Shown here piece by piece: positions 49,935-59,995 of a DNA stretch of 64,000 nt (position 1 is the stretch's first letter; the number at the start of each line of letters is the position of its first letter). The stretch lies in assembly GCF_005239135.1 (NCBI RefSeq), contig NZ_QKNX01000006.1, positions 62,001 to 126,000 of the forward strand, written 5' to 3'. Both the position numbers and the translations under genes were made by a program. Origin of the DNA: Natronomonas salsuginis. Its GTDB lineage: Archaea > Halobacteriota > Halobacteria > Halobacteriales > Haloarculaceae. The notes beneath the pieces were generated by a model. The model was not told the DNA's origin, did not search any database, and saw only the letters and a list, made by a program, of their open reading frames with translations.

Positions 49935-50855
49935 ATGACCGATAGAGCGGACGAGCGTTCAGCGGACGACTCGTCCGACGCCGATCCGTTCGAATACCCT
50001 GCCGACGCCGAGCCACGAGGTGAGTCCGAACCATCCCCAGTGCGCTCTCGTCGACGGCCCAACGACGACGCCGATACGGCTGACTCGCCGACGGGCGTTA
50101 TCGGCTGGATCCGGTGGTTCTGGCGGGGCGATACGGGCTCGCTGGTGTACGTGCGCGACGCCCTGACGAGCCTCGTTATCGTCGTCGCAATCGGCCTTCT
50201 CCTGTTCGCCGCCAGCGGCGTTTGGCCGCCGATGGTCGCCATCGAATCTGGGAGCATGGAACCGAACATGGAGCGCGGAGATCTCGTCTTCCTCGTCGAC
50301 ACCGATCGGTTCGTCCCGGACGGGGCCATCGTCGCCGACGGCGTCTCGACGGGCGTTGTCCCCGCCGACGTGGCCGAGCGAAACGGTCGGACAGAGTTCA
50401 ATCGCCCCGGCGACGTGATGGTCTTTCGGCCCAACGGCAACACCGCGGACACTCCGATCATCCACCGCGCGATGTTCTGGGTCTCGGCCGACGAGAACTG
50501 GTACGATCGTGCCGACCCCGCCCGGATCGGTGACGCCGAGAACTGCGAGGAATTAAACCACTGTCCCGCCCCCCACGCCGGGTTCATCACGAAGGGCGAC
50601 AACGAACTCACGAACAGACACTACGATCAGGCGTCCCGGCTGTCGGCGCCGGTTCGTCCCGACTGGATCATCGGAACGGCTGAGCTGCGGGTTCCGTACC
50701 TCGGCTACGTTAGACTGCTGCTCTCCGGCGTCATGGTGACGCCGGTCGAACCGGCGGTCGCCGATCCACTCGAGCCGTCCGCGACGCGGGACACCTCTCC
50801 CGCAAGCGCGAACGTTACTGCCGCGCCTGTTCGAGCCACCCCTCGGCCCGCTTGA
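49935..50855 (+). CDS. Signal peptidase I (S26B, Sec11-like)
   Basis: A 306-residue membrane protease cleaving Sec signal peptides. A disordered acidic N-terminus of about 75 residues is followed by a TM helix ([23 protein letters not shown]), the catalytic Ser in [18 protein letters not shown] and the catalytic His in [11 protein letters not shown], which replaces the bacterial Lys as in archaeal/eukaryal enzymes. [15 protein letters not shown] is the third conserved block, and YVRLLLSGV near the end may be a second TM. The 3' end overlaps the convergent phaC gene by 41 bp. Confidence 0.9.
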
Positions 50856-52194
50856 CGCCGACCCCGGCAGCCTCAGCGACCGCCGCGGCGTCAGCGTCAC
50901 GTAACGCCTCGACCGTGCCGAGCCCCGCGTCTCTGAGCCGCTCGGCGTAGGTCGGCCCGATCCCGTCGATCGCCTCGACGTCGGTGCCCTTCGCGTCCGA
51001 CTCGGCGACGCGCTCGTCGTCGCCGGGGGATTCGATCTCGATCTCGACCGCTTGGTCGCGCTCGTCGCCCGCCCCTTCCGCGCCGTCCGTTGCGGCCGGT
51101 TCGTCGGGCGAGTGCTCGACGTACCACTCGGCGACCTTCGGCCAGAGCGCCTGGTGGCTCGATCCCGAGACGGACAGCCCGATGTGCCCCGTCGGATGCT
51201 CGAAGATATCCGTCTCCTCGGAGGCGACCACGTCGTTGAACGGCTTGCTCGTCTCCGGCGGGATCAGGTGATCGTACTCGCCGACGATCTGCAACACAGG
51301 GATGTCGATCGACCCGACGTTGACGTGCTCGTCGCCGAGGTACATCTCGTTGTCGTGGAGCTTGTTCGACTGGTAGATCTCCTCGAGGAACTGGACGTAC
51401 GTCTCGCCGGCGAGGTCGATCCCTTCGGAGAGCCACCGCTCCATGCGGGCGAAGTTCTCGACGAAGTCGTCGTTCTCGAGGTTGTCGTAGAGGCGGACGT
51501 ACTTCGAGACGAAGTTCGCGACTGGATCCATGAGCGCGAACCCGATATCGAGCATCTCGGCGGGGACGTTTCCGTAGGCGTCGACGACGTCGCGGGGGTC
51601 GTAGAACTCGTCGTCACCCCACAGCTCGAGGACGCCGCCCTCGCCGTCGAAACAGAGCCCAGCAGCCATGAGCCCCAGCGCCCGAACCTTCTCCTGGTGG
51701 AGGGCGGTGTAGATCGCCGACATCGTCCCGCCCATGCAGTAGCCGAGGACGTTGATGCGGTCGACTCCCGAGCGTTCGCGGACGACGTCGACGCAGTTGT
51801 CGATGTAGCGGTTGACGTAGTCGTCGAGCGTGAGGTGGCGATCGAGCCGCGAGGGCTCGTTCCAGTCGATGAGGTAGACGTCGTGGCCGGCGTCGAGCAG
51901 CCGCCTGACGACGCTTCGGTCGGGCTGGAGGTCGAGGATGAACGGCTTGTTGATCAGCGCGTACACCGCGAGGATCGGCGTCCCGTGCTGTTCGTCGGTT
52001 CGCGCCTCGTAGTGCAGCAGTTCGAGTTTGTTCTCCTCGTAGACGACCTCGCTTGGGGTCTGTCCCACCTCGACGTCCTGTATCCGTTCGACCTGTTCGC
52101 CGGCGACCGCGCCGCGTTGGACCGATCCGACCGCCGTTTCGAGCAGTTCGCGCTGGACGTTCAACGCGAACGAAAACGGGTTGTTGGCGCTCAT
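50815..52194 (-). CDS. phaC: Class III polyhydroxyalkanoate synthase, PhaC subunit
   Basis: A 459-residue alpha/beta-hydrolase-fold polymerase joining hydroxyacyl-CoA units into PHA. The lipase-like box is GYCMGG with catalytic Cys153; Asp308 (GEYDHL) and His337 (TGHIGL) complete the triad. After about residue 365 comes an acidic linker and a C-terminal helix-hairpin-helix-like unit ([36 protein letters not shown], about 408-459), absent from bacterial PhaC. It acts with PhaE; the start overlaps the phaE stop by four bases. Confidence 0.94.
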
Positions 52195-52736
52195 TCGAGA
52201 CTCTCTATGATGCGATCGAGTTTCTCCTCGACGCGGTGCTGTCTGCGCTCCAGTTCGACGAGCCGCTCGCCGACCTCATCGATGTCCGAGCGGGTCGGCA
52301 TGCCGAGCTGGACGAGGGTCTCCTCGCCGATCTCGTCTGCCTGCTCGCGCATCTCCATCATCGCGTTGACCAGCCGGCCGTTCGCCGCGGCGAACGCCGA
52401 CGTCCCCATCACTTGTTTGAACGCCTCGTTGGCGCTCTGGAGCCAGATGTCGCGGAACTCCGTCACCGAGACCTCCTCGCCCTCGGCGGCGTCGGCCGTC
52501 CGATCGAACATCTCCTCGGTGGCGTCCATCCACACCTCGTAGGCCTCGTTGTACCCCTCGACGCTGCTCGCCCACTCCGTTTCGGTCGGCATCGAGTCCT
52601 CGACAGCGTCTGCCCACGACTCCATGAACGCCGCGCTCGCCTCCATGTTCTGCTCCATCGACGCCGCGACCGCCTGGTTCATGTTCTCGACCAGTTCGTT
52701 CCACTCCACCTGTACGTCCTTGGTATATTCACTCAT
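52191..52736 (-). CDS. phaE: Class III polyhydroxyalkanoate synthase, PhaE subunit
   Basis: A 181-residue, mostly helical protein ([88 protein letters not shown]). It matches haloarchaeal PhaE in size and in the C-terminal [20 protein letters not shown] segment equivalent to the PhaE box. It activates PhaC in a heteromeric synthase at the granule surface. Located directly upstream of phaC with ATGA overlap, and 69 bp downstream of the AbrB-type gene. Confidence 0.9.
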
Positions 52737-55813: not shown

Positions 55814-58078
55814 TCAGAAATCACCGAGATTCGATTGGTCCGGCCCCGCCGGTCCGGCGGTCGCTCCCTCGCGGTCGTCGTCTCGGTCCGGAACCGCCGT
55901 CGCATCCGGTTCGATCCCGTCCATATCCGGGTCGCGGTGGCCGGCGGCTTCGAGCACGTTTTCGGCCGTCTTCTCGCGGCCGCGGAGGGCGGCCAGAACG
56001 ACCGCCTTCTCGGCCTCCCGGAGTTCGGCGCGCGTCTCGATACCCGCGTCGTGGAGCCGACGGGCCCGCTTTCGTCCGACGCCACGGACCCCCGCGAGAT
56101 CGATCAGCTCCTCTCGGACGCCGTGTTTGACGCGCGTTCTGGCCTCCGCGATCGCCCGCACGCTGTCGAGGCCGAGCTCGCTCGCCAGCGACTCCGCAGC
56201 GCCGAGCAGCCACTCGGCGGTGTCGACCTTCCCGCGGATGTCACCCGGCCCGACCCCGTAGCGCTCCGCGATCTCGCTCTCGTCGATCTCGCTCGCCCAG
56301 TCTTCGAGCATCCGCGCTGTCTTCAGCGCCGACAGCCAGTCATCGAAGCGTCCCTCCTCGAACTCGCTGGGCATCTCGCCGAGGAACGTCGATTCGCGCT
56401 CGTAGGCCAACATCGTGTACTCCTCGCGGTCGCCCGACCGGAGGTACAGCTCGTACATGTCTGGGGTCCGCGAGACGAGGTGGTACAGCCCCATCGCGGT
56501 CGGCGTTCCCCCCGCTTCGAGGCCGTCGATGATCTCGGCGGCGCTCATGGGATCGAGATACAGCCGCGAGACGGTGTGGCCGAGGTTCGTCGCTTCGATC
56601 GTCTCCCCGCGGTCGACGAACCCGTTTCGCTCCAGATACTCGAGGGTCGTCTCGACGATCCGCTCGAGGTTGTCGCCCCCGTCGGAGCCGTGGCGGTACT
56701 GCGTCGCGTAGAGCGTCTGATCCAGAAACTCCAACAGCGCCTCGCGCGAATCGGCGAAGCCGGAGGCGACCGTCGCGAGCAGGTGCGTCCGCATCGAGGG
56801 CTCGCGGGCCAGTTTCGACTCGACCGGCTCGGGGTCGGCCCAGACGTAGCGATCGAGCAGTTCGTCCAGTTCGTCGTGGCTGTTCGCGAGCAGCAGCGCC
56901 TCGCCGTAGGGATCGCGCCCCGGTCTGCCCGCCCGACCCATCATCTGGTGGACTTCGAGGACCGAGAGTGGCTGCATCCCGCCCGCCTCCCCCGAGTACC
57001 GCCGCCAGTCGCGGACGACGACGCGTCGGGAAGGAGTGTTGACGCCCGCCGCGAGCGTCGGCGTCGCGCAGACGACCTTGATGAGCCGGTCGCGAAAGGC
57101 GTCCTCGACGATCGACCGGTGTTGGCTCGAACAGCCGGCGTGGTGGAACGCCGCGCCCTCCTCGACGCAGTTCGCGAGGTCCTCGCTCGTCTCGGTGTCG
57201 GAGACGCCTCGGATCTCCTCGGCGAGTTCGGCGAGCCGCTCGCGCTCCTCGTCGTCGAGCCCGTCGCGGCTCGTGTTCGCCAGCCGCTTTGCGGCCCCCT
57301 CGGCGTTCCGCCGCGAGTTGACGAACACGAGCGTCGAACCGCCCTCCGCGAGCGTGTCTCGGACGATCGCCTCGGTGGGTTTCTCGTTCGACCCGACGCG
57401 CAACTCGCGTTGGGATCCGTCGCCGAAGTGCAGCGCCTGTCCGTACTGAACGCCCGTCTTGAGCTCGATCGGCCGCCACGCCGAGTCGACCAATGCGGCG
57501 TCGAGCCACTCGGCCATCACCTCGGCGTTGCCGACGGTCGCCGAGAGCGCGACGACCTGTAGGCTCGGGTTGATCCGGCGGAGCTTCGCGAGCGTCACCT
57601 CCAGCGTCGGCCCCCGGTTCGGGTCGTTCACGAGGTGGACCTCGTCGCTTACGACGCAGTCGAGTTCGTTGACCCACGGCGCGCCGTTTCGCACGAGCGA
57701 GTCGACTTTCTCGCTCGTCGCGACGATGATATCCTTCCCGGAGAGCCACTCCCCGCTCTCGTCGTAGTTCCCGGTCGAGACGCCGATCGAGACGCCGTGG
57801 GCCTCGAAGGCGGAGAACTCCTCGCGCTTCTCGCTCGCCAGCGCCCGCAACGGGACGATGTACAGCGCCTTCCCGCCCCGCTCGACCGCCGACAGCATCG
57901 CAAGCTGTGCGATAAGCGTCTTGCCGCTGGCGGTCGGGATCGACGCCACCAGACTGTCGCCGTCGGCGACGCCCGCCTCGACGGCCTCCGCTTGCGGCGG
58001 ATACAGCGACTCGATACCCTCCTCCTGGAGGTGATCCGCGACCCACGGCGGTACCCCGGAGACCTCGGCAACGTCCAT
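55814..58078 (-). CDS. hel308: ATP-dependent DNA helicase Hel308
   Basis: A 754-residue superfamily 2 helicase acting 3' to 5' at stalled or damaged replication forks. Walker [11 protein letters not shown] is near residues 47-55, motif II is [14 protein letters not shown] and [12 protein letters not shown] are motifs IV-VI, and the winged helix, ratchet and HhH regions follow ([26 protein letters not shown]). The protein ends QSNLGDF, a short PCNA-interacting-like motif. Full length. ATG 58078 is the conserved [10 protein letters not shown] start. cgi121 follows directly. Confidence 0.96.
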
Positions 58079-58171
58079 TGGTCCCCGCTTGTGCGTCACC
58101 GAATGTAAATGATCGTATCGGCGACCGAACCCTGGATCCGTTTTAACGACTAATGGTGATAACACGCCTTC

Positions 58172-59995
58172 GTGCTCGACGCGCGCGCGATACGTGCCGA
58201 TCGACGGACGGTGCGTGTCCTCCACGTTGACGACAATCGATCGATTCTTGATCTCACTGCGGCGTTTCCCGACCGGGAGTTGGCCGACGTCTCCGTCACG
58301 TCCGAAACCACCCCCGACGACGCCCTGTCGCGACTCGAGACGGAGTCGTTCGACTGCGTCGTGAGCGAATACGAAATGTCGGGACGAAGCGGACTGGAAC
58401 TGTTCGAGGCGATCCGCGAGGATCACCCGCTGCTCCCGTTCGTCCTCTACACGGGCAAGGGGTCCGAGGAGATCGCGAGCCAGGCCGTCAACGCCGGCGT
58501 CACGGGCTACTTCCAGAAGGGCGGTCCGGACCAACAGCGCCGGCTCGCCAATCGGGTCAGACAGGCGGCCGAGAAGTATCACACGCGGATCGAGGCCGAT
58601 CGCTACTCGACCGTCCTGCGCGCGCTCGACTACCCGATATACGTCGTCGACGAGACCGGCGTGTTCTCCTACGTCAACGACGCGATGGTCGAGCTGACCG
58701 GCTACGAGCGCGAGGAGATAATCGGCGCTTCGACGGACATCATCAAAGACGACGAGGCCGTGGCGGCGGCCGAGCGCGAACTTGGCGACATTCTCTCACA
58801 CGAGGGCCCCGACACCACTCAGTTCTACGTCGATGTCGTCCCGAAAGACGGCGACCCGATCCCGTGTCGCGATCACATGGCCGTGTTGCCGTACGAGGGC
58901 GAGGAGTTCCGCGGGAGCGTCGGCATCCTGCGCAACGTCTGCGAGGAAGTCAGCCGCGAGGAGACGCTCGAACGCCGCGAGCGAGAACTCGAGCGGAAGA
59001 CGCGGGCGATGGACGAGGCCCCGGTCGGGATCACGATCACCGATCCGAGCCGCGAGGACAACCCGATGATCTACGTCAACGGCCGGTTCGTCGAGATGAC
59101 CGGCTACCCGCGATCGGACTCGATCGACGAGAACTGTCGTTTCCTCCAGGGCCCTGAGACAGACGAGCAGTCAGTGAACGAACTCCGCCAAGCGATCGAT
59201 ACCGGCGAGGCGACGACGGTAGAAATCAAGAACTACCGCAGGGACGGCGAACCGTTCTGGAACCGGGTCAGCATCAGTCCGCTGTTGTCCGAGGACGGCG
59301 AGGCAGAGTCTTGGGTCGGCTTCCAGCGCGACATCACGGCGTACAAGAATCGCGAGCGGGAGCTCGAGCGACAGAACGACCGGCTCGAACGGTTCGCTGG
59401 CATCGTCAGTCACGACCTCAGATCGCCAATGAGCGTCGCAGCGGGGCGGATCGAACTGGCGAAGGCCGAGGGCGAAGCCGACAGGGCGGCGAACCTCGAC
59501 GCCGCCCTCGACGCGCTCGATCGGATGGATACGATCGTCGACGACACGCTCACGCTGGCCCGGCAGGGCGACACCGTCGGCGAGCCGGAGACGGTGTCGC
59601 TGTCGTCGGTCGCCGAGGAGTGTTGGCGGACGACTGAGACGGACGACGGTTCGATCGAAGTCGCCGGCGACTTGCGGTTCCGAGCGGACCCCGATCGGCT
59701 CCGGAACCTCGTCGAGAACCTCCTCGGAAACGCGATCGAACACGGCGGCGAACGCGTCACCGTTCGGATCGGTGCGCTGGACGACGGCTTCTACATCGCC
59801 GACGACGGCCCGGGGATCGACGAGGCCGAACGCGAGTCGGTGTTCGATCCCGGCCACACGAGCGCTGAGGACGGGACCGGATTCGGCCTCGCGATCGTCA
59901 ACGAGATCGCCGAGGCCCACGGCTGGACCGTCTCGATCGGCGACGCCGAGGTCGGCGGCGCGCGGTTCGAGATCCGCGACGTTACGACCGTCTGA
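58172..59995 (+). CDS. Receiver-PAS-LOV histidine kinase
   Basis: A 607-residue cytoplasmic sensor kinase. Domains: receiver (about 14-130), PAS (about 143-262), LOV-type PAS (about 280-390), HisKA with phospho-acceptor His414 (SHDLRSPM) and HATPase ([25 protein letters not shown]). The LOV core has the flavin-adduct Cys322 in NCRFLQ plus Asn354, Asn364 and Gln385 in NYRRDG, FWNRVSI and GFQRDIT. In the receiver, the acceptor Asp is Glu66 (VVSEYEM), with Asp20/Asp21 and the TGKG Lys retained. Blue-light sensing with a phosphomimetic receiver is inferred. GTG 58172 lies about 25 bp after TTTTAACG. Confidence 0.9.

Follow-up and report, generated by a model that had tools for sequence, protein, structure and literature searches.

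REC-PAS-LOV kinases and aspartate-less receivers are both kinds of protein already known. A locus in Natronomonas salsuginis raises the question of which inputs still control a sensor histidine kinase that appears to unite the two, with a glutamate at the phospho-acceptor position of its N-terminal receiver and a predicted light sensor further along the chain. We analysed this gene within the window (the whole stretch of 64,000 nt examined), which comes from a genome of 12 contigs and 2,904,418 bases. The open reading frame encodes 607 amino acids from a GTG start and contains zero internal stops, and orthologues with the same REC-PAS-LOV-HisKA-HATPase architecture were found in several families within the order. 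Profile searches placed Response_reg at residues 16-118, PAS at 144-255, PAS_9 at 284-390, HisKA at 405-465 and HATPase_c at 506-601. By eye, a T-rich element precedes the ATG of three relatives at a distance of 32 nt. The promoter-like CCGTTTT of N. salsuginis lies at nearly this spacing, which supports a leaderless start. The features are collected in Table 1.

Table 1. Features of the kinase gene, in window coordinates.
Feature	Position	Strand	Basis
Promoter-like element CCGTTTT	58138..58144	+	34 nt upstream of GTG; by-eye comparison
Sensor histidine kinase gene, REC-PAS-LOV-HisKA-HATPase	58172..59995	+	No stop inside; same-architecture orthologues
REC domain, residues 14-125	58211..58546	+	Pfam PF00072, E 2.4e-15; CheY/DctD matches
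Codon GAA, Glu66 at phospho-acceptor position (CheY Asp57)	58367..58369	+	Alignments, pattern counts, AlphaFold model
First PAS domain, residues about 135-262	58574..58957	+	Without LOV cysteine motif
Seven-residue (one heptad) insertion, PAS1-LOV linker helix	58949..58969	+	Exact placement within repeat ambiguous
Left copy of 25-nt direct repeat (linker helix RERELER)	58976..59000	+	Spacing 375 nt, 84% identity
LOV domain, residues 277-392	59000..59347	+	Domain calls; YtvA/YF1 matches; Foldseek
Codon for Cys322, flavin-adduct cysteine, in NCRFLQ	59135..59137	+	Alignment to orthologues and YtvA
Right copy of 25-nt direct repeat (J-alpha linker RERELER)	59351..59375	+	Spacing 375 nt, 84% identity
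HisKA (phospho-acceptor His414) and HATPase_c	59357..59983	+	Domain calls; invariant motifs

The initial annotation had read VVSEYEM in the receiver as an acceptor motif in which Glu66 stands in place of an aspartate. This assignment held. A phmmer alignment to 1ab5 set 'cvvSEYEM' over 'fviSDWNM' of CheY, with Glu66 on Asp57, and in the AlphaFold model Glu66 directly follows strand b3. No substitute acceptor aspartate was found near Glu66, where D22 and E68 occupy separate columns, and in the CheY alignment no other aspartate takes the acceptor place. Asp20/Asp21, Thr94, Tyr113 and Lys116 are retained in the alignment. The domain thus has a receiver fold without the acceptor aspartate, as in aspartate-less receivers or pseudo-receivers, and with glutamate at this position it cannot take the usual aspartyl phosphate.

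Aspartate is the normal residue here, as had been proposed. Among 23 orthologues at 53-69% identity, one (L027) is broken before REC, and all 22 that include the receiver have Asp at the acceptor. The same holds for the syntenic orthologues of three Natronomonas relatives and for all remaining receivers of the N. salsuginis genome. With patterns of matched degeneracy, the Asp form of the motif occurred at 345 places in 146 Halobacteriales genomes and the Glu form at 3, namely the N. salsuginis kinase and two REC-bearing multidomain proteins, one from another Natronomonas and one from a genome of family f5. By these counts the Asp-to-Glu change is real, rare within its motif class and, as far as sampled, private to the N. 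salsuginis lineage. Two sequences fetched with the pattern CVVSEYEM (L041 and L042, Haloarchaeobius) were selected for the motif and were therefore excluded from the frequency estimates. They are more distant REC-PAS kinases without the LOV cysteine motif, and their EYEMSG stretch likewise combines a Glu acceptor with loss of the D+4 proline, apparently as an independent occurrence. Across archaea, about 10-15% of receivers lack the aspartate (PMC12632262), and glutamate is the commonest substitute in such domains (PMC4395418). In a census of archaeal REC-kinases, the majority kept Asp57 but some did not, and up to 40% may escape phosphorylation (PMC5847659).

A sequencing or assembly error at Glu66 might be suspected, as GAA is one base from GAC or GAT and the residue was seen in one genome. 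It is hardly credible, given the 352x coverage reported for the N. salsuginis F20-122 assembly (PMC9895928) and the nearby lineage-specific D68E and P70S, which require independent changes.

We then considered the light-sensing part. The claim that the second PAS region keeps a full LOV residue set proved correct, numbering included. Every residue checked (N321, C322, R323, Q326, R339, N354, N364 and Q385) is identical to YtvA, and these include the four named earlier, Cys322, Asn354, Asn364 and Gln385. In the profile search the 280-390 segment matched PAS_9, and the best PDB match of the domain was the LOV domain of Bacillus subtilis YtvA (2pr5, E 4.9e-32). Across LOV and kinase together, the best solved match was the LOV kinase YF1 (4gcz, E 1.6e-39). 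All 39 LOV columns that do not vary among the other orthologues have the same residue in N. salsuginis. The Gly of GxNC is replaced by Asp (DENC), as it is in the orthologue L031, and the YtvA-family profile NF052652 scored 181 bits, below its curated cut-off of 250, with residues 278-408 as the best stretch. From these residues we infer that the domain binds flavin and gates the kinase by light. A LOV domain can in principle also respond to the redox state of its flavin, so the domain could report redox state, or bind no flavin in vivo, and light would then not be the signal; for archaeal LOV kinases, no output was found in the literature searched. We consider this unlikely, because all the flavin-contact residues checked are kept and because ALovD-1, also a haloarchaeal LOV domain, has been proven to act as a slow-cycling receptor for blue light, functional in salt up to 3 M (PMC12202551).

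The NCRFLQ motif also occurs at two other places in the N. salsuginis genome, G000:C1:830415 (L155) and G000:C2:265235 (L156). The first belongs to a REC-PAS-LOV kinase with an Asp acceptor and offers a control for the Glu variant within one genome. Five NCRFLQ motifs occur elsewhere in the genome of N. moolapensis.

The kinase motifs are intact. PF00512 and PF02518 scored above cut-off, and the His box (His414), the N box (N516/N520) and the G1, F and G2 boxes (DDGPG 544-548, GTGFGL 568-573) are present; H414, D415, N516, N520, D544, G546, G548, G570 and G572 are invariant in a 25-sequence alignment. In HisKA kinases the residue at His+4 is linked to phosphatase activity. The H-box (window 59411-59425, residues 414-418) reads HDLRS in N. 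salsuginis, HDLRS or HDLQS in Natronomonas relatives and HDLRN in most orthologues of other families, and the phosphatase side of the kinase may differ on account of this residue. The AlphaFold model had a mean pLDDT of 84 and a pTM of 0.38, so its single domains are usable and their mutual arrangement is not. It contains a helix at 119-151 after REC and a J-alpha helix at 389-433. In the model the receiver would connect to the kinase core by way of a helix, as in the Rec-controlled kinase LvrB, though with PAS1 and LOV interposed; Foldseek ranked YF1 first and LvrB 46th. The sign of the light response was sought in linker length. Gln385 and His414 are 29 residues apart, and the LOV-DHp linker of YF1 is 9 residues longer, a difference of neither 7n nor 7n+1, which gave no prediction (PMC6798134).

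Together, these observations suggest, with a probability of about 0.6, that the gene encodes a haloarchaeal Rec-controlled LOV histidine kinase whose N-terminal receiver became an aspartate-less pseudo-receiver, independent of phosphate and more likely active-like. In such a kinase the receiver would stop switching with phosphate and sit in one state. That state would more likely be active-like, because the retained switch of Thr94, Tyr113 and Lys116 could read Glu66 as it does the D56E residue of LvrB. Phosphorylation of His414 would then be controlled by the LOV domain, through the Cys322-flavin adduct, a Gln385 flip and the coiled-coil J-alpha helix, and by the first PAS domain, and phosphate would pass from the kinase to a response regulator encoded elsewhere. 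In LvrB, D56E was constitutively active and D56A stayed basal (PMC13269768). This behaviour makes locking plausible, and the retained Thr94, Tyr113 and Lys116 would permit it. An Asp-to-Glu change by itself often fails to activate receivers (PMC4395418).

The pattern of substitution in the receiver raises a second explanation, in which the phosphate input became useless in this lineage and Glu66 is one among several substitutions under loose constraint, without effect on signalling; REC would persist only as a cap for structure or dimerisation. Three of the 50 REC columns invariant elsewhere are changed (D22N, D66E and D68E), and the lineage-specific cluster as a whole comprises D22N, L33P, I64V, D66E, D68E and P70S, of which L33P falls within helix a1, whereas the proline at D+4, after b3, is lost through P70S. 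In relative-rate tests against N. moolapensis, the N. salsuginis REC evolved faster with two of five outgroup sets (17:2, p=0.001, with G305; 10:1, p=0.012, with both Natronomonas outgroups), and the excess was not significant with the three others (10:5, 11:4 and 9:7). PAS1 and kinase showed no rate excess, and the contrast between REC and the rest gave p=0.002 to 0.03 with the G305 and both-Natronomonas outgroups. Against decay, pairwise REC dN/dS was low (about 0.15-0.27), which indicates continued constraint on the domain, Asp20/Asp21, Thr94, Tyr113 and Lys116 are intact, and D22N and D68E are states of working receivers. We therefore regard decay as quite possible but short of probable, and a locked receiver as somewhat ahead of it. 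Under locking or decay, the usual phosphate input would be lost, and light and the first PAS domain would remain.

The intact switch residues also fit a receiver that works by another route, with Glu66 neutral or differently modified, or with REC binding a partner, so that two regulated inputs are kept. Every non-acceptor switch residue is in place and phosphorylation-independent receivers exist (PMC12632262). We judge this improbable, as no partner is visible at the locus and no bacterial signalling through a modified Glu at that position was known to the authors of PMC4395418.

The gene is flanked on one side by the divergent hel308 (start near 58078) and on the other by a ferredoxin gene, after which come mdh and uvrA. 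The same order including the kinase was found in N. aquatica (G241), G305 and N. moolapensis (G043). Five other Natronomonas genomes, N. pharaonis among them, have no kinase there, and hel308 abuts the ferredoxin gene; the locus thus does not always include the kinase, which is optional there, and a functional tie to hel308, ferredoxin, mdh or uvrA was rejected on the same ground. As first described, no response regulator is adjacent: the window contains no other receiver, and the nearest ones on the contig lie at distances of about 52 and 60 kb. The Asp-bearing relatives likewise have no neighbouring regulator at this locus among the genes checked, so its absence is unconnected with Glu66. 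Elsewhere in the window, a polyhydroxyalkanoate synthase-like gene pair was recognised by eye (50815-52736, minus strand); it is not tied to the kinase.

The syntenic kinase of N. moolapensis offered a direct comparison. It has 485 amino acids and a canonical Asp receiver, and it is without exactly the LOV domain. In a maximum-likelihood tree of REC, PAS1 and kinase, with site 66 excluded, this copy was sister to the N. salsuginis gene inside a LOV-bearing clade (split support 87.7/90), and such nesting indicates that LOV was lost in N. moolapensis. PAS1 and the phospho-acceptor His are separated by 166 residues in N. salsuginis and by 41 in N. moolapensis, a difference of 125 codons, which equals the 375-nt spacing of the direct repeats that flank LOV in N. 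salsuginis. LOV was thus probably removed by recombination between the flanking linker-helix repeats. The remaining 41 residues exceed by one heptad the 34 found in paralogues that naturally have no LOV, which keeps the coiled coil in phase. In this post-loss linker (L065:6820-6870, approximate) we observed a perfect tandem repeat of 21 nt, two copies of CGCCGCGAGGCCGAACTCGAA with one heptad in each.

A further heptad distinguishes the linker in front of LOV. The spacing from GSVGIL to APxGI is 34 residues in N. salsuginis and 27 or 28 in LOV-bearing relatives, and from length and context the seven-residue insertion appears to be common to the N. salsuginis and N. moolapensis genes. Since YF1-type kinases rely on heptad phase (PMC6798134), a full-heptad insertion should leave transmission intact. 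Comparison of the two sequences suggests that the sister species lost opposite inputs, phosphate in N. salsuginis and LOV in N. moolapensis. The locus might then be described, tentatively and with less than even confidence, as an allelic series: REC(Asp) with LOV in N. aquatica and G305, REC(Glu) with LOV in N. salsuginis, and REC(Asp) without LOV in N. moolapensis. Opposite inputs would be disabled in the two sister species, with Glu66 freezing the active form, so that light and PAS1 would gate the kinase of N. salsuginis and phosphate and PAS1 that of N. moolapensis.

Among known systems, LvrB of Leptospira (PDB 8vc9; PMC13269768) is similar in having an N-terminal REC and a long helix to HisKA-HATPase. 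Its studied D56E is the same acceptor change as the natural Glu66, and the Thr switch residue is kept in both. It differs in being bacterial, in lacking PAS and LOV, in its known partner LvrC and in its natural Asp; a phosphorylatable Asp in REC is shared with LvrB by the Asp-bearing orthologues and not by the N. salsuginis kinase. Archaeal REC-(PAS)n-HisKA-HATPase kinases, none of them characterised, form the same architecture class (PMC5847659), but the N. salsuginis kinase adds to it a canonical LOV domain and a Glu among otherwise intact switch residues. The haloarchaeal RR/PAS-LOV kinases and ALovD-1 also join a canonical LOV with REC/PAS and then a histidine kinase (PMC4844311, PMC12202551); in the work on ALovD-1 the LOV domain was examined on its own, and we found no report on the receiver-acceptor state of these proteins. 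The pseudo-receivers CmrT, AtvR and ChxR share Glu at the acceptor (PMC12548384, PMC4395418, PMC12632262), and CmrT also lacks the D+4 Pro, as does the N. salsuginis receiver through P70S. These three are response regulators, whereas the N. salsuginis receiver is the input domain of a predicted light-sensing kinase. YF1 and YtvA, the closest solved structures for the LOV-histidine kinase part and for LOV, have no REC.

The authors of a 2025 review are aware of no functional work on any aspartate-less receiver from archaea (PMC12632262), and full-length structures of LvrB, put forward as the prototype Rec-controlled kinase, came only in 2026 (PMC13269768). Collectively, our comparisons provide natural syntenic alleles with differences at the acceptor residue, in the presence of LOV and in one linker heptad, which makes the integration of two inputs in one kinase testable through parts that evolution has already swapped.
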